In this document: in pieces, positions 6,141 to 60,139 of the stretch
Layout of the letters: each line of letters starts with the position of its first letter
How positions within the stretch are numbered: the stretch's first letter is position 1
Origin: Pseudochryseolinea flava
Lineage (GTDB): Bacteria > Bacteroidota > Bacteroidia > Cytophagales > Cyclobacteriaceae
Assembly (NCBI RefSeq): GCF_003286915.1
Contig: NZ_QMFY01000002.1
Location: forward strand, 1 to 64,000
Length of the DNA: 64,000 nt
Reading direction: 5' to 3'
Position numbers and translations under genes: made by a program
The notes under the pieces: model-generated
The model's database searches: none
What the model was told of the DNA's origin: nothing
Seen by the model: only the letters and a program-made list of their open reading frames with translations

Positions 6141-7388
6141 TTAAATTGATCTTCCCTTCCGCTTCTTCTTCTTTTTCAAATCATAAGGCGTATTCGAGTG
6201 ATCGACATTTGCTTCCGTTAGCTGCCGCACGAGATCCAAATTTTCGAGTCTTGGATCTGCATCGCTGATCGAATAAGTTTGCTTCTCGTTGTACTCCTTC
6301 ACCGGCAGACGCGGCATTGTTGGATCTTTTTTATCAGGTTCTATTTTGAATCGCTCCTGAATTCCATTCGCGCTGTAGCTTTTGCCCAGTGCACTACCGT
6401 TGAATACACACTTCGTTGTATTGTCTATGAAGGTTAGTCCATATATTCTTCCGTCCTCGTTCTGCCTAACAACCGGATAGACATCATTGGCGACCATATG
6501 TTTGACGAAGTCCGAAAACTCCCTCCCCGGTTTCGCTTCAAATGCGTCAATGACGGTTCTCAATCTTTGCCCATGAGATTCACGTCTCATTTCGTTGAGT
6601 TCAAACTGACCGGAGAGAAATTTCAAGGTCGGGCTGCCATATATTGAGCTGGCTTTAATGGGTACTCCAATAGCCTGGCCTTTCTTATCTAACAAAGAGT
6701 ATCGCAAACCATTCTTTTCTCGAATCAGTGTTCCTTCTTTACCCTGATCTGCGATTATGTTGTATTGCTTCAAAACCGCATTCAGTTCATGGATGGATGT
6801 AAACTTGTATGATCTCACAACAGCATTTACAATATTTGAAATTGTCCGCTTGGTTTCAGACTTACCATATGCGGCTCTTGTGAGATCGGCAGGCTTTAGA
6901 ATCTCATTATCCTGCTTCCGGCCTTGGGCCTTGACAAGCTTAAAGTCGATTTCAATTTCTCTTCTTGCCGTTTCAGATCGATCACGGCCAATATTGTGCA
7001 GATCGATTCTGCTTCCATCAACTTTGACATTTGTCGTGACTAAATGAATATGAGGGTGCGCTGCATCAAAATGTTGATACACCAGGTATGGCTGGCTTCC
7101 GAAACCAATTTTGTCTAAATAGGTTTCGGCAATCTTTTCCAACATGTCCTTATCTAGTCGATCACTCTTGTCAAAATTTAACGAGATGTGAATCGCGTTG
7201 GTCTTCACTTTCGAATTCAATAACTGATAGTCAAGAAAGGTCTGCAACTTGTCATTAAAGCCTAACTCATCTGCCTTAACCGGAAACCCCTCTGCCCTAA
7301 TGCAAGCAGCAGTCCCCTCCTTAACCTTGTTCTCGTTGTAGCTGAGAACTCCTCGTATCGTCTTCCCACTAATCACCTTTGCAACCAT
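6141..7388 (-). CDS. Relaxase / mobilization nuclease (MobB-like)
   Basis: A 415-residue relaxase that nicks the transfer origin and pilots the strand. Catalytic Tyr17 lies in VLSYNENKV, and the metal-binding histidines are in HPHIHLV near residue 111-117, the HxH pattern of MOB relaxases. The C-terminus is highly basic (KKKKKRKGR). Its start overlaps the accessory protein gene by 16 bases, indicating coupled translation. The N-terminal MVAKVISGKTIRG is typical of Bacteroidetes relaxases. Confidence 0.92.
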   Translation of the reverse strand: MVAKVISGKTIRGVLSYNENKVKEGTAACIRAEGFPVKADELGFNDKLQTFLDYQLLNSKVKTNAIHISLNFDKSDRLDKDMLEKIAETYLDKIGFGSQPYLVYQHFDAAHPHIHLVTTNVKVDGSRIDLHNIGRDRSETARREIEIDFKLVKAQGRKQDNEILKPADLTRAAYGKSETKRTISNIVNAVVRSYKFTSIHELNAVLKQYNIIADQGKEGTLIREKNGLRYSLLDKKGQAIGVPIKASSIYGSPTLKFLSGQFELNEMRRESHGQRLRTVIDAFEAKPGREFSDFVKHMVANDVYPVVRQNEDGRIYGLTFIDNTTKCVFNGSALGKSYSANGIQERFKIEPDKKDPTMPRLPVKEYNEKQTYSISDADPRLENLDLVRQLTEANVDHSNTPYDLKKKKKRKGRSI

Positions 7389-7780
7389 TTTCGTCCAAGT
7401 GTATCTACCATTTCCATCAACACGCTGACCTTTTCACTAACCTTTGTGTATTCCTCGGCTACCTCCATCGCATAAAACATCTTCTTGCGTTCAGTATCTG
7501 CTGCATGGAAATGCCGAGTGATCTGATTGACGTTAGTGCCAATTGCTCGAAGCTCAGACCGGATGCCTGCCAGTTCTTGGATGTGAACTTGAAGGCTCAT
7601 GTCTCTTTTAATCATCACGATCTTTTCTTTCGAAAGAATTTTCCTTACCAGTTCGCCAATCGAATGACAGTTACTTTCGGAGAGACTAGATTCAAGACGG
7701 TTGAATACTGCATCATTCACCCGTGTTCGAATCGGATGATTAAGCAGCTCCTCTGGTCTTGATAATTTCTTTCTCGCCAT
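7373..7780 (-). CDS. Relaxosome accessory protein (MobA/MobC-like)
   Basis: A 135-residue DNA-binding accessory of the relaxase. I place the start at the ATG at 7780 (MARKKLSRPEEL); the open frame continues to 7876, but that part is unlike the family and a GAGAG stretch precedes 7780. The N-terminal half looks like a ribbon-helix-helix domain (RTRVNDAVFNRLESSLSES) and the rest is helical with the family pattern ELRAIGTNVNQITRH. Gene order, accessory protein, relaxase, coupling protein, is standard. Confidence 0.88.
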   Translation of the reverse strand: MARKKLSRPEELLNHPIRTRVNDAVFNRLESSLSESNCHSIGELVRKILSKEKIVMIKRDMSLQVHIQELAGIRSELRAIGTNVNQITRHFHAADTERKKMFYAMEVAEEYTKVSEKVSVLMEMVDTLGRKWLQR

Positions 7781-7836
7781 ATTTTTCTCTCGTGGGTGTA
7801 AAGAAAGGCGAGACCTATACTGGAAAACAGTTACAA

Positions 7837-7850
7837 GGGTACTAGTACCC
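7837..7850. promoter_or_regulatory. Perfect 14-base palindrome upstream of the mobilization operon
   Basis: GGGTACTAGTACCC is a perfect palindrome 57 bases upstream of the accessory-protein start. Its position suits an operator for the mobilization operon or part of the transfer origin, which in related elements lies next to the relaxosome genes. Confidence 0.5.
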
Positions 7851-7893
7851 CCGGTAATGCATTGATTGTGAGACAAAAAAAATTATGGGCGCT

Positions 7894-8178
7894 CTAAATC
7901 ATTTTAAAAAAAGTTCTTTTATGGTGTAGATCAGCGCGAAGAAAGCACTTAAAAAGAGAATGATTCTCTCTGATACAATCATCAGTTTCATAATCCTCTT
8001 TCTGGTTTTCTTCTTCACTTTTAGCCTTTACTATATATATATGCGTGCTATCCCCTTGCTTGAGCACCAGGCACAAAAGCGGTAAAAGCAGCTTAATAAG
8101 CCGGGTGATTCTCGATTTTTTGAAAGCTATTAAGAAGAGTTTTGAACTTTTAGGACGGGGTTTTCTGGCCGTTGTCAT
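7894..8178 (-). CDS. Doubtful basic 94-residue protein
   Basis: An ATG-started frame between the mobilization operon and the zinc-finger membrane protein gene. It is very basic at the start (MTTARKPRPKSSK), has one hydrophobic segment (LIKLLLPLLCLVL) and an acidic centre. No family is recognised. It could be a real small element gene, but the segment may instead be the non-coding transfer-origin region. Confidence 0.35.
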   Translation of the reverse strand: MTTARKPRPKSSKLFLIAFKKSRITRLIKLLLPLLCLVLKQGDSTHIYIVKAKSEEENQKEDYETDDCIRENHSLFKCFLRADLHHKRTFFKMI

Positions 8179-8190
8179 GCGTATTTTAGC

Positions 8191-8329
8191 CTGAAGGGCT
8201 TAAGACGCTTAGACCGGCTGAATTACTTTTGAGGGTTCTCAGGGTCGCCCAGATGCCGAGTTCCGAGGCATTTTCGTGGACAAAAATACATCTTGCTGAT
8301 GCTGGAGGACAAGCATCGAAGCCCTTCAG
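8191..8329. repeat. Long-range inverted repeat, candidate transfer origin
   Basis: CTGAAGGGCTT (8191-8201) and its exact complement AAGCCCTTCAG (8319-8329) flank about 117 bases that are more GC-rich than the neighbourhood. The block lies in a non-coding gap between the mobilization operon and the replication-type genes, where oriT of Bacteroides mobilizable elements usually sits. Confidence 0.4.
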
Positions 8330-8340
8330 ATGAGGCCATA

Positions 8341-8367
8341 AAAAAGCCCGGATTTTATCCAGGCTTC
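8341..8367 (-). terminator. Terminator after the zinc-finger membrane protein gene
   Basis: On the minus strand AAGCCTGGAT pairs with ATCCGGGCTT around a short loop (one mismatch) and is followed by six T. It lies 27 bases after the stop of the gene ending at 8394. Confidence 0.8.
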
Positions 8368-8393
8368 GCAGATTATTGTGGTTCTAGATTTCC

Positions 8394-9035
8394 TTATGCC
8401 GCCTTCTCTGAAGTCTTTTCAGAGAGTTGTATCTCGTCCTTTCTACGGTACTTATGCGCCTTTGAAATGTGGCCATCAAGCGCTCTTTTATTTGTGAATG
8501 GACCGGCATTACACTCTTCACAGAAGAGTTCGACTTTCTCCTCTCTTACTCTCCGGTAGAACAATTCACTCAATTGCCAGACCGACAATGAATGAGTAAG
8601 ACAAATGAATAAGCTGATAATGGTAGTTTTAATGTTGACGACAGTCGGATCTTGGACGGTGATAAACCAGTAATCATAATAGAAGGCGTTGAGGAAAAAA
8701 CTGACGACCGCGTAGAACTTGCCAGTGTTCTTGTAGCCATTAATCAGGAAGATCAGGATCAGGAACTCAATTACTGCCGCCAGCCCCACGCCATATATCC
8801 AGTTAAGGACGGAATAACCGGAAAAGGTCATGTCAAGGTGCTCTAATTGCATGAAAAGGTTACCTGCATGAGGCACGTAGAGTATCATAAGGATAAGCGC
8901 ACCATGGAAGATGGCTTGCTTACTTTCTAGATAGGTCACGATATGGTTCATAAAATTGTTGCTAAGGTTGAAATGAAAACTAAATTCTAATTGAGCGTTT
9001 TGTCGCTGGATTGAGTTGAGCGACCAGATAATCAT
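8394..9035 (-). CDS. Membrane protein with a C-terminal C2H2-like zinc finger
   Basis: A 213-residue protein with about four hydrophobic segments (HGALILMILYVP, a long stretch around IYGVGLAAVIEFLILIFLI, FYAVVSFFLNAFYYDYW, and TTIISLFICLTHSLSVW). It ends in a soluble tail carrying ELFCEECNAGPFT...HISKAH, a Cys-x2-Cys-x13-His-x4-His arrangement like a classical C2H2 finger. The start at 9035 overlaps the primase gene by 56 bases; a second ATG at 8951 is equally possible. Function unknown; its place beside the primase and mobilization genes suggests an element-maintenance role. Confidence 0.72.
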   Translation of the reverse strand: MIIWSLNSIQRQNAQLEFSFHFNLSNNFMNHIVTYLESKQAIFHGALILMILYVPHAGNLFMQLEHLDMTFSGYSVLNWIYGVGLAAVIEFLILIFLINGYKNTGKFYAVVSFFLNAFYYDYWFITVQDPTVVNIKTTIISLFICLTHSLSVWQLSELFYRRVREEKVELFCEECNAGPFTNKRALDGHISKAHKYRRKDEIQLSEKTSEKAA

Positions 9036-9870
9036 TCACGTCTTTATGAGACGCGTAGAACCCAGAACAGTCCATAAATGGAATATGCTCGCTGTGCAAA
9101 GACTTCTTTGCGGTGGCTCCTGCCTGATCGTTATCAAGAAATAAGAAAGATTCATGACTCTTCATCAAAGCCTGACTTCGCTGCATGAAGCTTAATGAAT
9201 TAAGAATCAGAAAATCCGCATCCGTTCCAAACGCTGGCGTTTTGCTTTTGAGCTGTTCAATGGACAGAAAATCCATGAACCCCTCCACCACATACAATTT
9301 GGCTGAATCATTGTCTATAAACGAAATGTCTTTGGGGCTTGATGATCCTTTGAACCAATTATTTCTGAGTTCATAGCCTCCAGACTTATTCTCAAATCCG
9401 ACAGCCAGGTAATTCTTCTGAGCGATCTGAAAGGAGACTTCCTTGCAGTAGCGAAACGCAACATCTTCATCAATGCCTCGAGTTCGCAAGTAATCAATCA
9501 ATTCATTGCTGCGAAGTTCCCCAACCGATTGAATGCTGAGTTTATTCTCGGGTTCCTTTGGGTTGTTTCGGTGAAGAGAAAATAAAGGAGTAATAGGACT
9601 GAACTCAGACAACTGATTTACAAACTCTGAAGGCGTGCATGTATTGATACGCGCACCCAGGTCAATGAGAGTTCCGCCTTCCCCCGAACCATGATCATAC
9701 CATAGATTTAATTTGTTATTGACTTTGAATGATGGGTCCTTCTCTCCTCTCAGTGGAGAGTTATACCAATAGTTATTCCCTCTGATTTTTGCGGGTTGAA
9801 TTCCGATTGAACTCAAATAGTCTATAATCGGAATCTTCTTTGCGTCTGAAAAAGTAAGAGCCATATCCAT
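8980..9870 (-). CDS. Primase-like protein with Toprim domain
   Basis: A 296-residue protein with an N-terminal CHC2-like primase region (NYWYNSPLRGEKDPSFKVN, then LWYDHGSGEGGTLIDL) and a Toprim domain: LYVVEGFMDFLSIEQL supplies the conserved Glu and FLFLDNDQAG the Asp-x-Asp. The usual zinc-ligand cysteines are not evident in the N-terminal region. Such proteins prime replication of the transferred single strand of mobilizable elements. It is transcribed with the membrane protein gene below it. Confidence 0.85.
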   Translation of the reverse strand: MDMALTFSDAKKIPIIDYLSSIGIQPAKIRGNNYWYNSPLRGEKDPSFKVNNKLNLWYDHGSGEGGTLIDLGARINTCTPSEFVNQLSEFSPITPLFSLHRNNPKEPENKLSIQSVGELRSNELIDYLRTRGIDEDVAFRYCKEVSFQIAQKNYLAVGFENKSGGYELRNNWFKGSSSPKDISFIDNDSAKLYVVEGFMDFLSIEQLKSKTPAFGTDADFLILNSLSFMQRSQALMKSHESFLFLDNDQAGATAKKSLHSEHIPFMDCSGFYASHKDVNDYLVAQLNPATKRSIRI

Positions 9871-33157: not shown

Positions 33158-33174
33158 TGGTATTAAAATCGTAT
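33158..33174 (+). promoter_or_regulatory. 17-base upstream element shared with 59867
   Basis: TGGTATTAAAATCGTAT ends 52 bases before the ATG of the small YYC protein gene. The identical 17 bases end 58 bases before the paralogous gene at 59942. Conservation in the promoter region of two copies 27 kb apart argues for a promoter or operator. Confidence 0.6.
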
Positions 33175-33226
33175 GCAGTACCAACGATCCTCCTGCGCAC
33201 TTCAGATCTAATTAACGTCACTAAAT

Positions 33227-33439
33227 ATGAAAAACTTACAGATTACTGAAACCGCGTCTCCACTTTACTCCCCGGGGACGGTTGTGTATGCAAAGGATAA
33301 TCCAGCGATAGAGCTCGCAATCCTGCATTATGTAGGGGGAATCTATTACTGTGCTGTCGTCGGCGACGCCAAGTACAATAATTTACCGTTCCTCGAATGT
33401 CAACTCGGGCAACGGAGTGAAATGGATCGCAAACTTTGA
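33227..33439 (+). CDS. Small YYC-family protein, copy 1
   Basis: A 70-residue protein from a family with four members in this window (also 45201, 53584 and 59942). The shared core is Y-x-P-G-T-V-V-Y-A, a spacer, then IYYCAVVGDAKYNNLPFLECQL. It is close to the copy at 59942 (about 70 percent of residues equal by eye) and weaker to the other two. No known function; the beta-strand pattern suggests a compact SH3-like fold. It lies near exported and CsbD-like genes, so a stress role is inferred from context. Confidence 0.75.
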   Translation: MKNLQITETASPLYSPGTVVYAKDNPAIELAILHYVGGIYYCAVVGDAKYNNLPFLECQLGQRSEMDRKL

Positions 33440-33626: not shown

Positions 33627-33932
33627 ATGAAAATAAAAATTGCTATTTTTTTTGTGGCTGCCGCAACGATTTTAATTGCTTGCTACGGCGCTATCGCACA
33701 GGAGGCACCGAAGATGAATAAGGAAGAGAATGCCCGGATCGACAGCCTTGCGATCGCGTACAAGCTCAACGACAAGCGCGAGAAACTGAACATTGAAAAG
33801 AAGCGACTGATAACTAAACAAAAAGAAAAAGCTGACTCAAAGTTAAAAGCCAAAGATGCAAACCGTCTTTCTAGTGCTGAAAGAAAAGGGCGAAAAGTAA
33901 GAGTTAATGCAATTGCCGAAAAACCAAAGTGA
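33627..33932 (+). CDS. Small exported Lys-rich protein
   Basis: A 101-residue protein with a signal peptide (MKIKIAIFFVAAATILIACYGAIAQ) followed by a charged helical region, MNKEENARIDSLAIAYKLNDKREKLNIEKKRL and onward, rich in Lys. A paralogue is at 58624 with the same ENxRIDSL motif. Located between the YYC and CsbD-like genes, as in the other set. Possibly a periplasmic stress protein; unknown otherwise. Confidence 0.7.
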   Translation: MKIKIAIFFVAAATILIACYGAIAQEAPKMNKEENARIDSLAIAYKLNDKREKLNIEKKRLITKQKEKADSKLKAKDANRLSSAERKGRKVRVNAIAEKPK

Positions 33933-34027: not shown

Positions 34028-34225
34028 ATGACACAAAATCCGTCACCAGTCGAAATCTGGGAAATCCAAAAGATAAAATTAAAATCGATGTTCAAAAATG
34101 TTCACGACGACGATTTCAAATTTGATTATGGCAAAAAAGAGGTCATGATGAGCAACTTGCAGGTAAAGCTCGGTAAAACGCGGGAAGAATTGAACAAGCT
34201 ACTGGAAGGTCTTGGCCGGTTTTGA
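34028..34225 (+). CDS. CsbD-like small stress protein
   Basis: A 65-residue protein with the CsbD pattern: VEIWEIQKIKLKSMF, then DDFKFDYGKKEVMMSNLQVKLGKTREELNKLL. In Bacillus, CsbD is a general stress protein under sigma-B. Two relatives lie at 58330 and 59189. It follows the exported Lys-rich gene. Confidence 0.8.
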   Translation: MTQNPSPVEIWEIQKIKLKSMFKNVHDDDFKFDYGKKEVMMSNLQVKLGKTREELNKLLEGLGRF

Positions 34226-35218: not shown

Positions 35219-35512
35219 CTAGTCAAAACGACGAAGGCCATTTTTTAGATCAGTGCCTAATAGCATCTCGGCCCCTTGTGCGTGTTTCTTTTTATAATTC
35301 CCTATTACTTCAGCGTCTCCAAACAAGAACAACAGCGCCTCTTTCATCGACTGTGCACGAACAACATCCTTGAATATGACGATCGGTTCATGAAAGTTGA
35401 TATACACAATAACATCAGGAGACTCACGCATAAATTGCTCAACCTCAACAAACGAAAATCTTCTAGCTCCAAATAGGTCATCCACAATATCACCCTTCTG
35501 CGCGAATAGCAA
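35219..35512 (-). CDS. Uncharacterised 97-residue protein
   Basis: Contains FSFVEVEQFMRESPDVIVYINFHEPIVIF and a helical MKEALLFLFGDAEVIGNYKKKHAQG. No family recognised. It is opposite to the response regulator and upstream of nothing obvious; the frame has normal amino acid composition. Confidence 0.5.
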   Translation of the reverse strand: MLFAQKGDIVDDLFGARRFSFVEVEQFMRESPDVIVYINFHEPIVIFKDVVRAQSMKEALLFLFGDAEVIGNYKKKHAQGAEMLLGTDLKNGLRRFD

Positions 35513-35554
35513 AAAAACACATCAATCAACCATGATCGTAAATAAATCTTCTGA

Positions 35555-35905
35555 TCATACTACCACATCTTCGTAACCACTTTTGATTATGGTTGAGACC
35601 ATCTTGAATCGTACGTTCGCCATGATTGAATTTCTGGCGTGCCCTGGTATAATGATGGCCTGGCCGACCTCCAGGTTCGTCGTCACATCATTAATAACGA
35701 CCTCAGCTTTCCCATCGATTATGTGAATGAAGGTGTCAAACGGCGATGCCTTTTCCGTCAGAACCTCACCGCTATCGATTGAAACCACGCTTACATTCCC
35801 GGTGATTCTTTTTATAACTGTTTTTATAACCACGGATTTCGGCACATATTCAATGATGTCAACGATAGTAAATGGCTTGCCTCTTTCTTGTTCAGTATTT
35901 TTCAC
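35555..35905 (-). CDS. Cupin-domain protein
   Basis: A 116-residue cytosolic cupin. It shows IDSGEVLTEKASPFDTFIHIIDGKAEVVIND and GQAIIIPGHARNSIMA. Motif one lacks the usual two His (it reads SPFDTFIHI), while one His remains in each motif, so metal binding may be altered. Small cupins of this sort are common in Bacteroidetes and other anaerobes; function unknown. Confidence 0.8.
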   Translation of the reverse strand: MKNTEQERGKPFTIVDIIEYVPKSVVIKTVIKRITGNVSVVSIDSGEVLTEKASPFDTFIHIIDGKAEVVINDVTTNLEVGQAIIIPGHARNSIMANVRFKMVSTIIKSGYEDVVV

Positions 35906-36950: not shown

Positions 36951-37250
36951 ATGAAAAAAACAACTGAGATCTTTTCGCAGGACATTCGTGTATTAAGCCC
37001 ACGAAAAACGTTACTATCAAATTTATCACGTTACAGTGACCAGGTATGGGACCTACAAGGCGAACATCTCGGCAAGATAAAACGGCTCATCCTAGATCCG
37101 CTGGATGGTAGCTGCAAGCGAGTAGTAATCGCTTACGGCGGCACCATCGGTGTCGGCGCGAAATGCTTCTCCGTGCCGCTTCACGATCTCACCGTTTCAA
37201 AAAGTGGGGTATCCATCCTTAATCCCGGTAATTTGCGCCCTGGCCAATGA
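36951..37250 (+). CDS. PRC-barrel domain protein
   Basis: A 99-residue protein with one PRC-barrel: YSDQVWDLQGEHLGKIKRLILDPLDGSCKRVVIAYGGTIGVGAKCFSVPLHDL. PRC-barrel proteins act as protein-interaction or RNA-associated modules and are frequently stress-linked. Two longer relatives are at 45538 and 54024. Confidence 0.88.
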   Translation: MKKTTEIFSQDIRVLSPRKTLLSNLSRYSDQVWDLQGEHLGKIKRLILDPLDGSCKRVVIAYGGTIGVGAKCFSVPLHDLTVSKSGVSILNPGNLRPGQ

Positions 37251-37457: not shown

Positions 37458-38555
37458 ATGAGTCGAAGCGTTATCACCTTTTCAAAAGACAACCTTGATT
37501 TCAGTTCAACTCTAAATCAAAGAGTCAACGAGTATTTCAGAACACGAAAGATCAGCAAGCACGGAAACCGGGAGATGTTTATTAAAACAATTTTCATGTT
37601 CCTGCTTTATTTTGTTCCATACCTGGCTATACTCACTGAGACTGTGACACATCCAGTACTGCAAATCATCAGCGTAGTTATCATGAGCATCGGTCTTTCG
37701 GGCATTGGCCTGTCCGTAATTCATGACGCAAATCACGGCGCCTATTCCAAACAAAAATGGGCCAATACGTTAATCGGCTACTCACTAAACATGGTCGGTG
37801 CAAATGCCTTTAATTGGAAAATCCAACATAATGTCTTGCACCACACCTACACGAATGTCCACGATGAAGATGAAGACATCAGCCCTCGGGGCGTGCTCAG
37901 AATGACACCTCACTCAGCGTGGAAACCCATCCACCGTTACCAATACATTTACGCATGGTTTCTCTACGGTCTGATGACGATCGTATGGATGGTGGTAAAG
38001 GATTTCGCTCGTTTGATCAAGTATCAGAAGAATGGACTCCTTAAAAAGCATAGTGGAAATGCAACAAAAGAGTGGATCATCCTGATCGCAACAAAAATAA
38101 TTTATATTTCCTACATCTTTATTCTACCGGTGCTGCTCACGGACCTTTCCTGGTGGCAGGTACTTATAGGGATAACGATACTACATTACCTGGCAGGCTT
38201 CATGTTAGCAATCATCTTTCAACCAGCCCACGTTATAGACGGAACGGCGTATCCCCTACCCAATGAGGATAATATGCTGGAAAACAATTGGGCAATTCAT
38301 CAACTGCATACCACCACAAACTTCGGCAACGATAGCAGATGGTTCTCATGGTACGTTGGCGGATTGAATTTCCAGATCGAACATCACCTGTTCCCAAATA
38401 TTTGTCACGTTCACTACCGGAATATTGCCGCCATTGTCAGGAAGACCACTATTGATTTCGGTTTGCCTTACAAATCCTGCAGAACATTTCTTGATGCATT
38501 GAACGGACATGCGAAACTGTTACGAAGCCTTGGCAGGAGGCCAACTACCGTTTGA
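37458..38555 (+). CDS. Membrane fatty acid desaturase
   Basis: A 365-residue acyl-lipid desaturase. The three His boxes are present: HDANH at 89-93, HNVLHH at 124-129, and QIEHH near residue 310, the Gln type found in front-end (delta-5/6) desaturases. Several hydrophobic segments lie around 45-85 and 215-255. There is no cytochrome b5 domain, so a separate electron donor is used. It would adjust membrane fluidity, fitting the stress setting. Confidence 0.94.
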   Translation: MSRSVITFSKDNLDFSSTLNQRVNEYFRTRKISKHGNREMFIKTIFMFLLYFVPYLAILTETVTHPVLQIISVVIMSIGLSGIGLSVIHDANHGAYSKQKWANTLIGYSLNMVGANAFNWKIQHNVLHHTYTNVHDEDEDISPRGVLRMTPHSAWKPIHRYQYIYAWFLYGLMTIVWMVVKDFARLIKYQKNGLLKKHSGNATKEWIILIATKIIYISYIFILPVLLTDLSWWQVLIGITILHYLAGFMLAIIFQPAHVIDGTAYPLPNEDNMLENNWAIHQLHTTTNFGNDSRWFSWYVGGLNFQIEHHLFPNICHVHYRNIAAIVRKTTIDFGLPYKSCRTFLDALNGHAKLLRSLGRRPTTV

Positions 38556-41912: not shown

Positions 41913-43291
41913 TCAAAACTTCAGTTTAAAACCTTTTATTTTAGCGAACGCTTCCAGTCTCATGGCCAAACTTTTAACATCAATATTGAGAACCTTCGCA
42001 GCGTTTCTTTTATTAAAACCATTTTGCTGCAGCACCGATACAATACTACGATACACCTGTTCGGCCTGCACAACTACCTCCTGCACCGCTATAGTTTTTC
42101 CCTCCATAGGAAGCACCAATGGCAAATGTTGGCCGGGCAACGATAAATCTGATATCACATCGTCTTCCGACATGAGCACGGCACGCCTGATCACGTTCCG
42201 AAGTTCACGCAAGTTGCCAGGCCAATGATAACTTAACATATCAAGCACTACTGCTGGTGAAAAATGACTGACATTCTTGTGAAGCTCTTCATTCGTTTTA
42301 GCAAGGAAGTGTTCAGCATAAAATAGTATGTCGTCTTTGCGCTCTCTGATCGGCAAAATATTCAACGCAAATTCGTTGAACCGATGAAACAAGTCCGTCC
42401 TGAATGTGTGCGTCTTCACAGCATCAATCAGACGAATGTTGCTGGCCACCACTATGCGGACGTCAATCGGAATTTCTTCATTTCCGCCAATACGCCTGAC
42501 TTTCTTTTCCTGGATCACACGAAGAAGAGATGCCTGCACGTCTAGCCCGAGATTGGTAATCTCATCAAGGAAAAGTGTACCGTTTGAAGCTATTTCAAAT
42601 GCTCCTTTTTGTTGTTTCGCTGCGCCCGTAAACGCGCCTTGCTCATAACCAAAAAGAACGCTGCGCGCAAGTTCTGAAGACAATGTTCCACAATCAATAG
42701 CGTGAAAAGCATGCGAAGCCCGACGACTTCGGCGGTGAATTTCACGGGCAAATGCTTCCTTCCCACTTCCACTCTCTCCATATAGCACTACCGAATAATT
42801 TGTCGGCGCAACCAGATCAATGGTTTTTAAAACTTGCAGAAAGAAAAGACTTGAACTCAAAACATAGCCCTCGGGCACGGTTGCTATACTTTCAGCTTTG
42901 TTCTTTTTCGCCGGCAATGCTAACTTCGGTTCATTGTCACGCAGCAATTCCATGACAACTTCCACCAGTTGACCTGAAGCAACAGTCTTGACAATATAAT
43001 TCGATGCTCCACGACGGAGCGCGTCTACAGCATTTCGCACATTATAATGCTCTGACTGCATCACAACGGGCATGGCAGGATACAACCGATTTATTTTGAC
43101 AACGTTTCCAAGCCATCAGCGCGTCCCAATACAGCATTGCAAATAACAAGATCAATTGTAAATGTCTCAAGAATCCCGAAGGTGTCATCTCCGTTCTTCG
43201 CTTCATGCCAGGTCAAATCATGTCCGTTGAAACTTTTCCGTACGGCGATCCTGCTTGTTCGACTATAATCGATGATTAAAATTGATTTCAT
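41913..43291 (-). pseudogene. Sigma-54 activator (NtrC-like) split by a -1 frameshift
   Basis: Frame one (43091-43291) encodes the start of a receiver domain, ending ADGLETLSK-stop; frame two (41913 up to 43085) continues exactly with INRLYPAMPVVMQ. A single-base change around CAAAAT near 43094 accounts for it, with no residues lost. The receiver is degenerate: its phospho-Asp site reads DLVICNAVL (Asn) and the acidic pair reads IDY. The AAA domain keeps Walker A GESGSGKE, GAFTGA for sigma-54 contact and FLDEI, and a Fis-type helix is at the end. It could be a sequence error or a real break. Confidence 0.8.
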
Positions 43292-45200: not shown

Positions 45201-45404
45201 CTATTTTTGATCAGTCGAAACCGTAGCAGGCGGAATGAGTTCCCGTTCAAAGTAAGCGAGGTGGCTATGAGACTCATCTCCCACAATTTCACAATAATAA
45301 ATGCGCTGATAATATTTGCGAATAATCAGTGGCAACCCGGGATTTACTCTTGCTGAAATACGTGTACCTTCTGGATAGATGTTATCGTTACTTAATGTTT
45401 TCAT
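45201..45404 (-). CDS. Small YYC-family protein, copy 2
   Basis: 67 residues from the ATG at 45404 (MKTLSNDNIYPEGTRISARVN); a longer frame to 45758 overlaps a conserved gene and is not used. Core: IYYCEIVGDESHSHLAYFEREL. Nearest to the copy at 53584 (NDNIYPxGxxxxAR start and FxREL end). It follows the PRC-barrel gene in the same direction, and at 53.6-54.4 kb the same two families are adjacent again, though divergent. Confidence 0.75.
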   Translation of the reverse strand: MKTLSNDNIYPEGTRISARVNPGLPLIIRKYYQRIYYCEIVGDESHSHLAYFERELIPPATVSTDQK

Positions 45405-45537
45405 TTTTAAGGTTTGTTTATACTGGTTACGATGTAATACCACAACACCGAGCGCGCAGAACTGCCCGATGAAAACTCTGATCCAGCATACACCGGGGCA
45501 ATCAATCAACATACCGCGCAAGGTCGGGAGGGAATGC

Positions 45538-45966
45538 CTAATGATCAGAACCGGTATTAGCGCCCATAAAACCACCATAATTGCCTGAGAATTCGGAATG
45601 AAAGTTTGCATCTGGCCAATGCTTTTTATCAAAGCCCGGATTGTTTTCAAAGGCTGATCGGCTCTGCTCGAAAATGAACGTGCGATTCTCTGTATCGAGC
45701 GTAAGTGCCTCAAAAGGAACGGCGAAATATTTCTGATTAACTCCGGCAAATCCACCAAAAGCGATTATTATGTATTCAATTTTCCCGATGTCGATATTGA
45801 GCATAATATCTTCTATTTTCCCAAGATCTTCCCCGGAATCATTGAACACTTTATCACCAATGATTGACTTCGCCGTAAGTATCCGTACCGGATCGTTTGC
45901 ATTCCTTCCAGAATGATTCTTTCCGGTGATATTATCAGGATTGTTCAGATTTTTTAACTCTTCCAT
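45538..45966 (-). CDS. PRC-barrel protein
   Basis: 142 residues from the ATG at 45966 (MEELKNLNNPDN), chosen because it aligns with the start of the paralogue at 54024. Domain: VRILTAKSIIGDKVFNDSGEDLGKIEDIMLNID and IEYIIIAFGGFAGVNQKYFAVPFEAL. The tail ends GGFMGANTGSDH in both copies. Likely adaptor or stress protein. Confidence 0.88.
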   Translation of the reverse strand: MEELKNLNNPDNITGKNHSGRNANDPVRILTAKSIIGDKVFNDSGEDLGKIEDIMLNIDIGKIEYIIIAFGGFAGVNQKYFAVPFEALTLDTENRTFIFEQSRSAFENNPGFDKKHWPDANFHSEFSGNYGGFMGANTGSDH

Positions 45967-46209
45967 AAAATTCATTTGTAAATTGTTCTCACCAATTGAA
46001 CGCGTCTGCATTTGTTGCAGCGTGTCAACCGCGTAAAGCTAGCAACATCAGCTCACAGATGTGTTATACGAAGATTTTGCAACGTTGCATATTTCCCACT
46101 TTACCAACGAAACAATGTGTGAATCCTATAACGATCCACAATCCCTTTACAACACATTGAGCAACAGAAATGACTACATTGCTTAAACCCCTTTCCGGGC
46201 GATCTTACT

Positions 46210-47119: not shown

Positions 47120-47131
47120 GTGCATGCAACT

Positions 47132-47692
47132 ATGAAGATCTACGTCAAATATATGGTGAGCCTCAGGTGTAAGATGATCGTGAAAGAGGAATTAGAAAAA
47201 CAAGGATTGACAGTGTCCTCGGTTGAACTTGGTGTTGTCGAAACTCCCAACGATGTGACAGAACAGCAGCTTGCTGCGTTAAGGGACAACCTTTTTCGAA
47301 GTGGGCTGATCGTGCTCGATGACAAAAAAAGCATTTTGATCGAAAAGATAAAAGCGGTGATTATCGAGATGATTCATTATGAAGACGAGTTGCCGAAGAT
47401 AAACTACTCGAATTATATAAGCGACAAGCTATCCTATGATTACACGTACTTATCCAATATCTTTTCTGAAGTAAAGGGCATCACGATTCAACAATACATC
47501 ATCCAACACAAGATCGAGAAAGTAAAAGAGCTGTTGTTGTATGCCGAATTAAATCTAACCGAGATCGCTTACAAAATGCACTACAGCAGCGTGGGGCATC
47601 TATCGGCGCAGTTCAAAAAAATCACAGGACTAACGCCATCATTCTACAAAAAGCTAAAAGAAAAGCGAAACAGTAATCTCGAAGATCTATAA
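47132..47692 (+). CDS. AraC-family regulator with N-terminal HMA-like domain
   Basis: 186 residues from the ATG at 47132 (MKIYVKYMVSLRC). The first 75 residues look like a heavy-metal-associated-like ferredoxin fold (YMVSLRCKMIVKEELEKQGL, single Cys). The C-terminal AraC domain has two helix-turn-helices: NYISDKLSYDYTYLSNIFSEVKGITIQQYI and LTEIAYKMHYSSVGHLSAQFKKITG. The combination is found in Bacteroidetes; ligand unknown. Confidence 0.88.
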   Translation: MKIYVKYMVSLRCKMIVKEELEKQGLTVSSVELGVVETPNDVTEQQLAALRDNLFRSGLIVLDDKKSILIEKIKAVIIEMIHYEDELPKINYSNYISDKLSYDYTYLSNIFSEVKGITIQQYIIQHKIEKVKELLLYAELNLTEIAYKMHYSSVGHLSAQFKKITGLTPSFYKKLKEKRNSNLEDL

Positions 47693-50012: not shown

Positions 50013-53000
50013 TTAAGTCATTGGTAGGAACACATAAAACGTAGCGCCTTTATTTTCTTTTCCTTCGGCGTAGATACGCCCACCGTGGTCTTCCACGACT
50101 TTCTTCGCGATTGGTAGTCCCATGCCGGTACCTTCGATGCCTTTTTTGTCGTGAAGTCTCTGGAAAATAGAAAATATTTTCGCAATGTATTTTTGATTGA
50201 AGCCTATTCCATTGTCACTAACCTTGATACAAACGTAAACCTTCTCTTTGTTCAGCGCATGTGTCTCGATTTGTTCGGGAGTAATTGGCTCCGAGGTAAC
50301 GGTTACTACAGGCTTACCTACATTAAATTTAAGTGCGTTACTAATCAGATTCCCAAATAGCATCTCCATTTGACTGGCGTCGGCTAATATCGTCGGCAGC
50401 GTTCCTACGTTTATTACTGCCTCACACTCTTGGATCATCGTGTCGTATTGAATCAATACATCCTTCAGTACGGTGTTAAGGTCTGTTTGTCTTGGATGTG
50501 TCTTGTGATTTTGAAGCAACGATGAATAGCTCAAGAGGTCGCGCAGGAGATTTGACATTTTCGAAGCTGTGTCACCAATTTTGCCTACATATTCTTTTAT
50601 GTAGTCGTCGGTATTTTCATACTCCGTGAGATAATTCGAAAATGTCTGAATCTTACGCAGTGGCTCTTGCAGGTCGTGACCGGATATAAATATGAATTGC
50701 TCAAGTTGTTCATTCGCACTTTTAAGCTTGTAGTTTGACAAGAGGAGTTCACCGATGTTGTTGAAGGCAAGCAATATGAGCGTCTCTTTGCTTTTATCTT
50801 CTGTGAGCCGGTAAGCATTTACAAGAAATGCCATATCGCCCAGTTTCGAAAAAAAGTGTGCCAGCCGGAACTCTTTATAGTGTGTTTTTTTTCCGAGCAG
50901 ATCATTTAAATGTTCCCGGAGCGATTGGATATCCCATGAATGATGATCGAGCTCGTATATAAAGCATCCAATGGTATTTTCAGCGTTAAGTTTAAATGTT
51001 TCGTAGAAAGATTTGTTAGCGGTGCGTACCTGCAGATTTGCTGTGAGTACAAGAAAGGGACTGTTCACCGTATCGACGATTGCGTTAGCGTAGTTCTGTG
51101 ACTGCTTTAACTCTAGATTTCGTTTCTGTAATTCTTCGTTGATGGTGGTGAGCTCCTCATTGGCCGATTGCAGTTCTTCTTTCGAAGTCTCCATTTCCTC
51201 ATTAATACTTTGCAGCTCTTCGTTCGAAGACAGGATCTGTTCATTGTTTGCCTGAAGTTCTTCGTATGTAGTTTCGTATTCTTCGTTGGTGCTTTTTATT
51301 AATTCCCGAGACCGGCGAAGTTCTTCTTCAAGGCCAACAATGGTTTGCTCCCTTACAACAGAGGTCTTGGGCTTGCTTTTGAGCGCTACCTTTTTTGTTT
51401 TACTTTCCGGAATCTCCCGGAATATGACCAGGTAAAATGATTCATGTTGCATTTTTCGGGGTGCAACTTCGAGCACTAGCTCTTGTGGACGTTTATTATT
51501 GTGAATAACGATTCCTTCCTTCGAGACAGTACGCCCTGTTTTTTTTGCTTGCTGAATGAGCATACGAAGATCGAACAGGAGATCCTCGCGGATCATTTTA
51601 AGAATGTTAAAACTTGCCTTCCCGACTACTGGTAAAAGATAGTGTGAAGTGATTCCGAAGAATTGCACAATGTGAAGGTTTTCATTCAATACCAAACACG
51701 GCATCACATAATTGCTTAAGATCACTTTGCCGATCTCTCGCTCAAGGTCATACGGTGGCTGCGATAAAAGGCGAGGAGATTTCAGGATGACCTTTTCCGT
51801 TGAGTCAGCGGGTAAACGAACCACCTCGCTCGGAGCTTGCTTTCGACCATACATCCGGATTTTCTTATCAAGCGAATCGAAAAGCTCACTCGCAATTCCA
51901 ATCGATTCCGATTTTCCTAAAAATAGAAACCCATTGGGTTTAAGCGCGTAGTGAAATGTTCGAAGAATTTTTTCCTGTGGTTCATTCTTGAGATAGATCA
52001 ATACATTTTGACAACTGATCAGGTCCATCCTGGAGAACGGTGGATCCGACAGCAAATTTTGCTGAGAGAATATGCAGACTTCACGGATAGATTTTTCTAT
52101 CTGATAATGACCGTCAATTTTTCTGAAGAACTTTTTCAAACGCTCTGATGAGATCTTCTGCATAGCGCTGATCGAATACGTACCGACTCTCGCCTTTTCG
52201 ATAGCACCGGCGTCGAGATCGGAAGCAAATACCTGGTAAGGAATTGTTAGTTTCTTCTTCTCCATATATTCCGCAAGCGTGATCGCGATCGAATAAGCTT
52301 CCTCGCCAGTTGCACACCCAGCAATCCAGATACGAAGTGTTTCTGTTGCTTTTTGTCCCTTAATCAATCGTGGGATTGCGACGCTCGTAAGTGCTTTATA
52401 AAAATCGACATCCCTGAAAAAACTGGTTACGTTGATCAGGAAATCGTTAAAAAGCTCGTCGACTTCTCTGTGACTTTTCCTGAGCAGTGCGTAATAATCA
52501 TCCAGCGAGGACAGTTTATTAAGCGCAACTCTTCGGAGAACCCGTCTGTAGATACTAGGTTGTTTATAGTGCAAGAAGAAATCTACCCCTCTCCTCGACT
52601 TTACTATTGTCAAAATTCTTTTTAGTGCTTCACGGTCGGTGTCGATCTCTACGTCGTTGTCCTGCTCCGCTCCTTCTCTGGCAACAATGCCATTGCTTGT
52701 CTTCGCCCAGGTACCTAACTCTTTGGCAATGGCCTCGGGTGGTAGACAAAAATCAGCATAGCCTGCTTCACGTGCATTCTTCGGCATGCTGTGAAATTGT
52801 GCGGAGTGGTCTTGCGTAAACGTAATTCCGCCTGCGGCTTTTATTGCTTTTAGCCCCAGAGTACCATCTGTTGCAGTACCCGACAAGATCACGCCGACGG
52901 AATTGCTCTTGTAAACCGACGCAAGCGCAGTGAGGAAATAGTCAATTGCAAAGTTTCCATTCGCCGTTACAACCCTTGGTGCGAGCTTAAGATGTCCATC

Positions 53001-53372
53001 TACAATGCTCATGGACGCGTTTGGTGGGATTACATAGACGTTGTTCATTTTGACCTCCATGCCATTCCTAACCGTATGGACCTTCATCTCGGTTTTTAGC
53101 TGGAGAATTTCAGCAAGCGCGCTCTTGTGATTGGGTGACAGGTGCATTACGAGCACATACGCCATGTCGATGTTAGCGCTAAGGTTGCTAAGTACTGTTG
53201 AAAATGCCTCAAGCCCTCCTGCGGAAGCTCCAAAGCCCACGATAGGAAATGGTTTGGGTGGCGGGGACTTCGAATCAACTGTCGAGGTTGTCACCTTTCT
53301 GTTGTTCGGCTGGCGTATGATCTTTTTCAACTGGACATACCGGATGGCGTGTTTACAGCAATAAGTTAGCAA
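50013..53372 (-). CDS. CheB-CheR-PAS-histidine kinase fusion
   Basis: A 1119-residue multidomain signalling protein without membrane segments. CheB methylesterase: GFGASAGG nucleophile region near residue 47-54. CheR methyltransferase: SAM site RIWIAGCATGEEAYSIAI around 345-362. A long Glu-rich coiled coil (repeats of NEELQSxNEE) leads to a PAS-like region and then a HisKA H-box ISGHDLQEPLRKIQTF and an ATPase domain with DNGIGF and GTGMGLPIAKK. No ATG is available at the N-terminus; TTG at 53372 or later TTG/GTG codons are options. It would act with the lone response regulators nearby. Confidence 0.93.
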   Translation of the reverse strand: MLTYCCKHAIRYVQLKKIIRQPNNRKVTTSTVDSKSPPPKPFPIVGFGASAGGLEAFSTVLSNLSANIDMAYVLVMHLSPNHKSALAEILQLKTEMKVHTVRNGMEVKMNNVYVIPPNASMSIVDGHLKLAPRVVTANGNFAIDYFLTALASVYKSNSVGVILSGTATDGTLGLKAIKAAGGITFTQDHSAQFHSMPKNAREAGYADFCLPPEAIAKELGTWAKTSNGIVAREGAEQDNDVEIDTDREALKRILTIVKSRRGVDFFLHYKQPSIYRRVLRRVALNKLSSLDDYYALLRKSHREVDELFNDFLINVTSFFRDVDFYKALTSVAIPRLIKGQKATETLRIWIAGCATGEEAYSIAITLAEYMEKKKLTIPYQVFASDLDAGAIEKARVGTYSISAMQKISSERLKKFFRKIDGHYQIEKSIREVCIFSQQNLLSDPPFSRMDLISCQNVLIYLKNEPQEKILRTFHYALKPNGFLFLGKSESIGIASELFDSLDKKIRMYGRKQAPSEVVRLPADSTEKVILKSPRLLSQPPYDLEREIGKVILSNYVMPCLVLNENLHIVQFFGITSHYLLPVVGKASFNILKMIREDLLFDLRMLIQQAKKTGRTVSKEGIVIHNNKRPQELVLEVAPRKMQHESFYLVIFREIPESKTKKVALKSKPKTSVVREQTIVGLEEELRRSRELIKSTNEEYETTYEELQANNEQILSSNEELQSINEEMETSKEELQSANEELTTINEELQKRNLELKQSQNYANAIVDTVNSPFLVLTANLQVRTANKSFYETFKLNAENTIGCFIYELDHHSWDIQSLREHLNDLLGKKTHYKEFRLAHFFSKLGDMAFLVNAYRLTEDKSKETLILLAFNNIGELLLSNYKLKSANEQLEQFIFISGHDLQEPLRKIQTFSNYLTEYENTDDYIKEYVGKIGDTASKMSNLLRDLLSYSSLLQNHKTHPRQTDLNTVLKDVLIQYDTMIQECEAVINVGTLPTILADASQMEMLFGNLISNALKFNVGKPVVTVTSEPITPEQIETHALNKEKVYVCIKVSDNGIGFNQKYIAKIFSIFQRLHDKKGIEGTGMGLPIAKKVVEDHGGRIYAEGKENKGATFYVFLPMT

Positions 53373-53583: not shown

Positions 53584-53790
53584 TCATTTAAGTTTGGTTA
53601 CTGAGTTTTTTTTCGATGAAAGAATGAGTTCACGCTCATAATAAGCAAGATGCTTCATTTCTGGGTGCTCTGCGAAGGCGCAGTAGTAGGTGCGTTGATA
53701 GTATTGATCGATAATCAACGGTCCTGGGGCCAGTCTGGCCACTACGCTGCTGCCGACGGGATAAATATTGTCGTTGCTTAAGGTGTGCAT
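53584..53790 (-). CDS. Small YYC-family protein, copy 3
   Basis: 68 residues, MHTLSNDNIYPVGSSVVARLAPG, core TYYCAFAEHPEMKHLAYYEREL. Closest to copy 2. It is divergent from the PRC-barrel gene at 54024, repeating the pairing of the two families seen at 45.2-46.0 kb. Confidence 0.75.
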   Translation of the reverse strand: MHTLSNDNIYPVGSSVVARLAPGPLIIDQYYQRTYYCAFAEHPEMKHLAYYERELILSSKKNSVTKLK

Positions 53791-54023: not shown

Positions 54024-54452
54024 ATGGAACAAATAAATAATCAAAATGCCCTTGATAACACAACCGGCAAGAATCACACAGGCAAGGAAGCTAACAAGCC
54101 TGTACGTATTTTAACAGCAAAATCAATCATTGGCGATAAAATTTCAAACTGTGCTGATGAAGACCTTGGATCTATCGAAGATATTATGCTTAATATAGAC
54201 GAAGGCAGGATCGAGTATGTGATCATTGCGTTCGGTGGATTTATAGGGATGAATAAAAAATATTTTGCCGTGCCTTTTGCTGCACTGACGATTGACACTA
54301 AGAATCATGCATTCGTTTTTGACCAAAGTCGTTCTGTATTTGAGAATGATCCGGGATTCGACAAAAAACACTGGCCCGACGCAAATTTTCATACGACACG
54401 ATCCAGAAATTATGGCGGTTTTATGGGAGCGAACACTGGCTCGGACCATTAA
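54024..54452 (+). CDS. PRC-barrel protein, paralogue of 45538
   Basis: 142 residues, near-identical in plan to the copy at 45538: TGKNHTGKEANKPVRILTAKSIIGDK, a PRC-barrel with IEYVIIAFGGFIGMNKKYFAVPF and the same GGFMGANTGSDH tail. A recent duplication is likely because even the tails match. Confidence 0.9.
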   Translation: MEQINNQNALDNTTGKNHTGKEANKPVRILTAKSIIGDKISNCADEDLGSIEDIMLNIDEGRIEYVIIAFGGFIGMNKKYFAVPFAALTIDTKNHAFVFDQSRSVFENDPGFDKKHWPDANFHTTRSRNYGGFMGANTGSDH

Positions 54453-58329: not shown

Positions 58330-58515
58330 ATGAACATCAAGAATCCTGAACAGCTTTGGAGTATGCAAAAAGCGAAACTCAAACTTATTTTTCCTCACCT
58401 TGTAGATTCGGACTTTCAATACGATTATGGTAAGAAGGATGTTATGCTTGAACTACTCCAGGCGAAGCTTGGAAAATCTCGCGAGGATATTAATCTTTTA
58501 TTGTTTGGTCTTTGA
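58330..58515 (+). CDS. CsbD-like small stress protein
   Basis: 61 residues: LWSMQKAKLKLIFPHLVDSDFQYDYGKKDVMLELLQAKLGKSREDINLL. Close to the copy at 34028 (FxYDYGKKxVM, QxKLGKxRE). It precedes the exported Lys-rich gene, in an order reversed relative to the first set. Confidence 0.82.
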   Translation: MNIKNPEQLWSMQKAKLKLIFPHLVDSDFQYDYGKKDVMLELLQAKLGKSREDINLLLFGL

Positions 58516-58623: not shown

Positions 58624-58998
58624 ATGAAGAAACAAAATTTGATTTTTGCCCTGCTGTTGTCCGTGTCTTGCCTGGTCTCAGCCCAAGTTGTTGCCCAGAG
58701 ACCTTTAACCAAGAAAGAGAACAGTAGGATCGATAGTCTTAACGCATCGTACAATGTTGAAACTAACCGATTGAAAACTGTTGAAAACAGAGAAAATCTC
58801 TCGGATCTGAAGTCACAGAAAGCCGACACTAAAAAACAGGCTAAGGAAGCCCGACGAATTGAGCGAGATGCCAATGAAGCCGCGCGGGAATCCCGCATAG
58901 CTTACAGAAACGAAAAGCAGGCGCAGAAGGCCCGCAAACAAGCCGATAAACAAGCAAGGAAAGCTGCAAGGGCTAGAGACATTTCGAACGAAAATTGA
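58624..58998 (+). CDS. Small exported Lys/Arg-rich protein
   Basis: 124 residues with signal peptide (LIFALLLSVSCLVSAQ). The mature part shares ENSRIDSLNASYN with the 33627 copy and ends in a long Lys/Arg/Ala-rich helix (KQAKEARRIERDANEAARESR and more). It could bind envelope or nucleic acid nonspecifically; function unknown. Confidence 0.7.
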   Translation: MKKQNLIFALLLSVSCLVSAQVVAQRPLTKKENSRIDSLNASYNVETNRLKTVENRENLSDLKSQKADTKKQAKEARRIERDANEAARESRIAYRNEKQAQKARKQADKQARKAARARDISNEN

Positions 58999-59188
58999 TC
59001 ACGCATAGAGTTAATGTATCGGCAAGTAGTTCAATGAACACTCATGTAATTTTTCGTTAAATCTCATTGAGCATTTGCTTAGACTAGTTATTCAATTGAA
59101 CGAACGCTTTTATAAGAGCTCCCATCAACCCGGATTGTTAACGTTATTAACAACGATTAACAGGAATTACCTTTAAACGTAGGATTAT

Positions 59189-59374
59189 ATGCGCTATCAG
59201 CAACATATACAAAGAAACTGGTTGGATGTTAAAGATCGACTTAGACATAGATACCCGACATTAACAGAGGCCGACCTCGATATCGATTCGAAGGATCGCG
59301 ATTCGATCACCACGCTGGCCAGCAAAATCCAACTAACTAGTCAACAGCTGATTCGTGTGTTAAATGCGTTATAA
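59189..59374 (+). CDS. CsbD-like small protein
   Basis: 61 residues: RNWLDVKDRLRHRYPTLTEADLDIDSKDRDSITTLASKIQLTSQQL. More diverged than the other CsbD-like proteins but with the same WxxxKxRLxxxxPxLxxxDL start. Confidence 0.72.
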   Translation: MRYQQHIQRNWLDVKDRLRHRYPTLTEADLDIDSKDRDSITTLASKIQLTSQQLIRVLNAL

Positions 59375-59866: not shown

Positions 59867-59883
59867 TGGTATTAAAATCGTAT
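59867..59883 (+). promoter_or_regulatory. 17-base upstream element, second copy
   Basis: TGGTATTAAAATCGTAT, identical to 33158-33174, ends 58 bases before the YYC gene at 59942. Confidence 0.6.
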
Positions 59884-59941: not shown

Positions 59942-60139
59942 ATGAAGCGTCTAGAGGTCGCTGAAACAATTCCTCCGCTTTATAGGCCGGGGACTGTAGT
60001 TTATGCAAAGGAAAATCATGCTATAGAGCTTGTAGTAATACATTACGCCAAAGGAATTTATTATTGTGCTGTAGTCGGCGACGCGCAATACAATAATCTC
60101 CCCTTCCTGGAATGCCAGCTTGTGCAAGGTATTAAGTAG
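59942..60139 (+). CDS. Small YYC-family protein, copy 4
   Basis: 65 residues, MKRLEVAETIPPLYRPGTVVYAKENHAIELVVIHYAKGIYYCAVVGDAQYNNLPFLECQL. Near-duplicate of copy 1 with shared upstream element, so coding and control regions duplicated together. Confidence 0.8.
   Translation: MKRLEVAETIPPLYRPGTVVYAKENHAIELVVIHYAKGIYYCAVVGDAQYNNLPFLECQLVQGIK

Follow-up and report, generated by a model that had tools for sequence, protein, structure and literature searches.

Four short open reading frames lie scattered across the first 64,000 nucleotides of a Pseudochryseolinea flava contig (NZ_QMFY01000002.1, positions 1 to 64,000; hereafter the window, or C22:1-64000 in contig coordinates). Their products share a tyrosine-tyrosine-cysteine (YYC) motif, and two of them are preceded by the same 17 nucleotides. 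This arrangement raises the question of whether the YYC proteins form one family, what kind of protein they are, and whether the upstream sequence and the neighbouring genes indicate what they do.

Alignments and thresholds

Relatives of the window copies were kept if they scored at least 28 bits over at least 30 residues; alignment A3 contains 42 of the resulting 45 distinct sequences. The narrow alignment A2 has 11 members; the wider alignment A6 has 43 sequences, 42 of them from 57 distinct sequences and one from A3. Alignments A8 and A9 hold 8 and 5, respectively, of the 12 proteins listed for each. Frame matches within loci were dropped if shorter than 25 residues.

The YYC proteins are homologous and fall into three lineages

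The four frames in the window (copies A to D; Table 1) are homologous and represent a genuine protein family without a name in the libraries searched. End-to-end alignment of the window copies gave values of 71% for A and B, 35% for A and C, and 31% for A and D. A search of the 6.54 Mb genome recovered a fifth copy, E, on the minus strand at C22:98869-99078, 35 kb past the window; the next two matches had E-values of 0.1 and 1.6 and were not trusted. All five genome copies match one family profile with E-values of 5e-31 to 5e-26, the profile having been built from the copies and their relatives, with the copies themselves among its rows. In a FastTree phylogeny of 57 sequences, A and B form a clade with support of 1.0, C and D group with a Parachryseolinea copy and one more sequence (support 0.87), and E groups with a same-genus copy (support 0.90); deeper nodes are weak because the sequences are short. 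A sequence-only reading of the window had described a four-member family. The homology of the four frames stands, but since at least five copies fall into three lineages (A+B, C/D and E), they are not the product of one simple four-member expansion.

Copies A and B differ at 57 nucleotides, distributed as 15, 9 and 33 over codon positions 1, 2 and 3, with dN of 0.20 and dS of about 2. We therefore conclude that both proteins have been under purifying selection. The listed reading frame of copy C extends to position 45758 through a TTG start codon and is too long because that TTG lies upstream; homology places the start at 45404. Across 42 members of the family, the invariant or near-invariant residues are G, P, L, Y, YYC and E. 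The pattern proposed at the outset, P-G-x-x-V-x-A followed by YYC and L-x-(F/Y)-E, needs revision at both ends: its beginning is literal in A and B, but reads EGxxIxA in C and VGxxVxA in D, and the actual end is L-x-(F/Y)-x-E.

Direct searches placed these proteins in no named family. The four window copies had zero matches in Pfam, NCBIfam and PHROGs at E ≤ 10, and a PDB sequence search with A3 likewise gave nothing at E ≤ 10. Scanning the 42 members against Pfam at E ≤ 1 yielded nine families with one member each, none of them credible. The best of these matches, to a eukaryotic family at E = 0.0043, was taken as chance, as were four weak matches in three proteins (best E = 0.016) when 10 divergent members were scanned.

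Table 1. Positions in the window of the YYC copies, their upstream elements and neighbouring genes.
Feature	Position	Strand	Description and evidence
Copy A	33227..33439	+	70 aa, predicted SH3-like barrel protein; ORF and profile match
Copy B	59942..60139	+	65 aa, closest paralogue of copy A
Copy C	45201..45404	-	67 aa; ORF, alignment and profile match
Copy D	53584..53790	-	68 aa; ORF, alignment and profile match
17-mer before copy A	33158..33174	+	Core ends 53 nt before ATG; putative promoter/operator
17-mer before copy B	59867..59883	+	Core ends 59 nt before ATG; putative promoter/operator
Variant element before copy C	45428..45441	-	Ends 23 nt before ATG; suggestive
CsbD-like gene near A	34028..34225	+	Cluster profile E 9e-27; no Pfam match
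CsbD-like gene near B	58330..58515	+	Cluster profile E 8e-26; no Pfam match
Divergent CsbD-like frame, 568 bp upstream of B	59183..59374	+	Cluster profile E 1.2e-9
PRC-barrel gene, divergent from D	54024..54452	+	Pfam PF05239 E 4e-15
PRC-barrel frame (stop to stop), upstream of C on the same strand	45538..46038	-	phmmer E 2e-72 to the protein at 54024
Cupin gene	35555..35905	-	Cupin_2 E 7e-5, 22.8 bits against a cut-off of 27.2; cluster profile
AraC-type regulator gene	47120..47692	+	HTH_18 E 4e-18; cluster profile
Fatty acid desaturase gene	37458..38555	+	Pfam PF00487 E 4e-33

YYC proteins are predicted SH3-like barrels distantly related to DUF2158/YodC

AlphaFold modelled copy A with a pLDDT of 82.8 (91-94 in the core blocks) and copy C with a pLDDT of 76 and an SH3-like strand order. 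The model of A has four strands, a three-residue helical turn and a two-residue last strand, and the arrangement characteristic of SH3-like small barrels (four longer strands, a turn and a short last strand) is seen in the models of both A and C. The YYC proteins are thus modelled as, and likely are, SH3-like barrels, a fold name that comes from our own reading of the models plus Foldseek matches. Foldseek ranked PWWP, tudor, KOW and NusG-CTD barrels first, with E-values of 0.02 and weaker and no structural match at E ≤ 0.001, and VIA-align Z scores were at most 7.3, a range that the tool grades as possibly only a common arrangement. Given the weak E-values and low Z scores, the fold class is likely, and no specific relative is implied.

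Profile-profile comparison gave a more specific answer. We compared the family with seven DUF2158 proteins, taken from nine PF09926 loci of which two (L070 and L136) gave no usable frame. The hhalign probability was 94.7% with 57 members and 95.1% with A6. Two control sets of KOW proteins, which were split by ORF length and which we take to be L24-type (22 sequences) and NusG-type (6 sequences), gave 0.1% and 2.2-3.2%, respectively; CSP, CsbD-like, cupin and AraC controls gave at most 0.3%, and 60 column-shuffled profiles at most 0.5%. We call the DUF2158 link distant because the probability falls to 62.8% with the narrow alignment A2 (11 sequences).

On the evidence of these profiles, the YYC family is a distant relative of DUF2158/YodC and not a member of it. 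The alignment is collinear over 55 columns; the G-(D)-x-V start is aligned, as is a cysteine after the third strand that is present in six of the seven DUF2158 proteins, and one lysine is also common to both families. By contrast, none of the YYC members scanned (the four window copies, the 42 members and the 10 divergent ones) scores against PF09926, and one genome with five YYC copies (G000) has no PF09926 match. The prolines of the two families are offset by one alignment column, and the YYC family has the YYC hairpin and a FEREL-type tail instead of SGGP and C-x-W. Counted by eye, the DUF2158 motifs K-S-G-G-P and C-x-W occur in four and five of the seven proteins, and the SGGP and the tryptophan are absent from the YYC side of the alignment. 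The earlier view that the proteins belong to no known family therefore holds for direct profile searches, but not for profile-profile comparison.

The family is centred on the host family

YYC genes are concentrated in the family to which P. flava belongs, with scattered outliers elsewhere. Within the host family, 44 of 196 genomes (29 of 84 genera), the window genome included, carry a YYC gene by profile A2 at E ≤ 0.01, one positive genome (G096) reaching only 0.001. A class-wide draw gave 12 positive genomes out of 395, three of them in the host family; of the nine hits outside it, four are strong (E ≤ 1.3e-13) and five, at E = 7e-4 or worse, were not trusted. The wider profile A6 (E ≤ 1e-4), applied to a draw across the phylum, found three positive genomes among 395, all from the host family. 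Relatives in named genomes come from Parachryseolinea, Chryseosolibacter, two Cyclobacteriaceae metagenome-assembled genomes (MAGs), a Flammeovirgaceae MAG and a MAG labelled Chitinophaga. A single consensus-like query, suited to near relatives, found none in the phage and plasmid collections searched, and profile A2 found no near relative in the collection of viral contigs. Seven loci (L090, L104, L099, L103, L095, L078 and L081) have two YYC genes within 16 kb, often one typical and one divergent.

AraC-type regulator, cupin and CsbD-like genes recur around YYC genes

Each window copy had been noted to lie within 1 kb of a CsbD-like or PRC-barrel gene, and we confirmed this: a CsbD-like gene lies 576 bp from A, a weak CsbD-like frame (E = 1e-9) 568 bp from B, a PRC-barrel frame about 134 bp from C and a PRC-barrel gene about 234 bp from D. 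The two CsbD-like proteins scanned have no Pfam match; their label follows the sequence-only reading. A further PRC match, at 36951, is below the Pfam cut-off. The window contig has cupin genes at 35555 and 68782, AraC-type genes at 47120, 69692 and 104554, CsbD-like genes and two desaturase genes, and the window copies are not in a tight cupin-YYC operon order.

Several other features of this region were seen along the way. A cupin gene and its adjoining gene occur twice in the same order (window 35219-35905 and C22:67798-69132), with the neighbour shorter at 35219, and desaturase, PRC-barrel and AraC-type genes are likewise repeated over about 70 kb. The AraC-type regulators at C22:104554-105177 (plus strand) and at 47120-47692 in the window (plus strand) have a common N-terminus that, in our estimation, resembles a metal-binding HMA domain. 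The copy at C22:104554-105177, near copper-efflux-like genes, reads MVCNRC, with C-x-x-C; in the other 11 of the 12 listed AraC-type proteins this stretch is MVSLRC or MVSIRC, and one of the cysteines is missing. By eye, similar-looking small proteins of secreted type are encoded next to the CsbD-like genes of the A and B regions (33627-33932 and 58624-58998, both plus strand), and the gene orders there differ. A large CheB-CheR-histidine kinase fusion with a weak PAS match (50013-53372, minus strand) adjoins copy D, and a short frame at C22:98161-98289 (minus strand), by copy E and a cold-shock gene, corresponds to the start of an RpoD-type cluster profile. At 6141-9870 (minus strand), genes that by eye resemble the relaxase and primase of an integrative element are found. 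A response regulator of sigma-54 activator type (41913-43291, minus strand) is split into a receiver frame (43094-43291) and an AAA frame (41916-43085), and may be a pseudogene or an assembly error.

The recurrence of putative stress-type neighbours was borne out across genomes. In 45 loci from other genomes (L012 was omitted because it duplicates L074), an AraC-type regulator gene was found 28 times, a cupin gene 25 times, a CsbD-like gene 26 times and a desaturase gene 12 times, whereas each was found in 0 of 19 control regions picked by offset along the same contigs; this comparison treats related loci as independent and counts matches at any position within loci that mostly span about 16 kb. 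CsbD-type general stress proteins are thus recurring neighbours of YYC proteins but not their homologues (hhalign 0.2%), and the label "stress" is that of the neighbours' annotation. The sequence-only reading had picked out the CsbD-like genes, which do recur, but had not named the AraC-type regulator and the cupin, which are recurrent partners as well. No partner is universal: the cupin is missing from 20 of the loci, the AraC-type regulator from 17 and the CsbD-like gene from 19. There was no significant enrichment of response-regulator genes (20/45 vs 4/19), a second glycosyltransferase type (8/45 vs 1/19) or RpoD-type genes (6/45 vs 0/19), the last of which also lie near some YYC copies in other loci.

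Gene order is conserved in a subset of loci. Among 58 YYC copies, which include the five on the window contig and count one locus (L012 and L074) twice, 14 are preceded by a co-directional cupin gene no more than 300 nt away, and eight are followed by a co-directional CsbD-like gene no more than 150 nt away. The order AraC, cupin, YYC, CsbD-like, on one strand and within 4 kb, occurs at L087, L089, L091, L103, L108 and L109. At the genome level, a cupin match at E ≤ 1e-15 is found in 32 of the 44 genomes with a YYC gene and in 35 of the 152 without one, and at E < 1e-45 in 27 of 44 and 2 of 152. The stricter count is inflated, since YYC neighbourhoods supplied the sequences for the cupin profile and the genomes are related. 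Since the AraC-type regulator is present in 163 of 196 genomes, its co-occurrence with YYC genes in all 44 positive ones says little.

A 17-mer precedes copies A and B

The identical 17-base element noted upstream of two copies is real. The sequence, TGGTATTAAAATCGTAT, has two exact matches in the window, at 33158 upstream of A and 59867 upstream of B, both in the sense orientation; the sole further match in the window has three mismatches, with 0.29 matches expected at up to three mismatches. In the 6.54 Mb genome the 17-mer again occurs exactly only twice, with one more match at two mismatches. When the A and B regions were anchored on the 17-mer without gaps, the flanks were identical at 10 of 60 and 12 of 60 positions, as expected by chance. 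A sharply bounded 17-mer between chance flanks, next to genes with near-saturated synonymous sites, is most simply explained as a bound site.

The element is probably a promoter or operator site for two, perhaps three, of the five copies. Upstream of copy C is a variant, TGGTATTACATCGTA, one base shorter and with one substitution in the core; in a comparison that covered three copies (C, D and E), 15 of 3304 background windows scored as high, four of the 15 being exact sites. Nothing comparable was found upstream of D and E. Genome-wide, the pattern GGTATTA-N0-3-ATCGTA matches four sites, and three of these precede YYC genes, a tally that is partly circular because the C variant was seen by eye before the pattern was written; the fourth match, on contig C5, is within a coding sequence read by eye as SusC-like. 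No YYC copy from another genome exceeds 10/17 against the 17-mer, which is therefore not a family-wide motif. The shared upstream element is thus upheld for A and B, and a shorter form of it precedes C, but D and E show none; because the element is limited in this way, regulation common to the whole family is not shown.

What kind of site might the 17-mer be? The promoter consensus of Bacteroidota is TTTG / TAnnTTTG, and by eye no such element was found around the 17-mer. Sigma-54 promoters follow the consensus TGGCAC-N5-TTGC with fixed spacing, and the sites at A and B fit a relaxed form only. Nonetheless, the 17-mer has GG-N10-GT spacing, the relaxed pattern matches just these two sites in the window, and a Sigma54_activat domain is encoded at 41916-43085, such that a -24/-12 promoter driven by the sigma-54 activator of this island could be envisaged for A and B. 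The pattern was, however, loosened to fit the 17-mer, and 21 of 100 shuffles give at least two matches; moreover, the missing base in the C variant would break the spacing, and the activator is split over two frames. We regard a sigma-54 promoter as improbable. Alternatively, since A and B are sister paralogues, the 17-mer could be a functionless remnant of the duplication that gave rise to them, but with dS of about 2 and flanks at chance level, a neutral block of 17 bases would hardly have stayed perfect. We consider a remnant slightly less probable still. A bound promoter or operator site is the explanation that we prefer.

Discussion

The strongest new facts are the recurring neighbourhood and the DUF2158 link. 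We propose, with reasonable though far from complete confidence, that the YYC proteins, as small SH3-like barrels on a remote branch of the DUF2158/YodC superfamily, are non-catalytic binders that work in a stress module with the AraC-type regulator, the cupin and the CsbD-like protein. The YYC proteins would be cytoplasmic, and the conserved tyrosine/cysteine hairpin would be the part of the barrel that binds its partner, a protein or a nucleic acid. That the module would serve in stress is suggested by the annotation type of the neighbours, and the 17-mer would act as the promoter or operator site for the copies that it precedes.

Two other readings of the proteins deserve consideration. Given that the predicted structure is an SH3-like barrel resembling NusG-CTD and KOW domains, such as that of ribosomal protein L24, and that many members have a basic RRY hairpin, YYC proteins could be KOW-like binders of nucleic acid, the ribosome or RNA polymerase that tune transcription or translation in stress. 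There is, however, no profile relation to either KOW type (0.1-3.2%), acidic and basic residues are about equal in number in the five copies, and most of the basic residues that the family consensus carries on the tyrosine/cysteine hairpin are missing from A and B. We think such a KOW-like role unlikely, and the lack of these hairpin residues in A and B leads us to lean towards a protein rather than a nucleic acid as the partner of the barrel. A further alternative is that YYC genes are not stress genes, but are carried by a mobile island as selfish or defence-related cargo, as the genes resembling mobilisation genes, read by eye at the left end of the window, might hint. The phage, plasmid and viral-contig collections searched gave no near relative, and a similar neighbourhood recurs across many genera; we consider mobile cargo the most improbable of the explanations weighed here. 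The non-catalytic binder within a stress module is the reading that we carry forward.

There is a possible parallel in enterobacteria. As far as the relevant excerpts of the two sources go, YodC (DUF2158) and YjbJ (CsbD) homologues are among the sigma-S dependent small ORFs of Salmonella (PMC5437024), an E. coli sigma-S ChIP-seq table includes yodC (PMC4447067), and the YodC of enterobacteria is both small and sigma-S dependent. In the library searched we found no paper joining CsbD to PRC-barrel/Bacteroidetes, to cupin/Bacteroid or to Cyclobacteriaceae; for a family as nameless as the YYC proteins, searches of this kind cannot prove that it is missing from the literature. A tentative extension of our proposal, which we hold to be possible but doubtful, is that the neighbourhood is a so far unnamed stress module of Cyclobacteriaceae-type bacteria, whose AraC-type regulator, metal-binding-like but degenerate at its N-terminus, would control the cupin, the DUF2158-like barrel and the CsbD-like protein, with the barrel as a new stress adaptor and its paralogues split between circuits by their promoter elements.

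A nameless protein now has a profile of its own, a predicted fold and a distant link to a superfamily, and the YYC family is tied to a neighbourhood of four genes that recurs and is testable as a unit. Should the proposed role in stress be correct, DUF2158-type and CsbD-type proteins would go together in the stress responses of two distant phyla, and YodC-like function would become testable from two sides.
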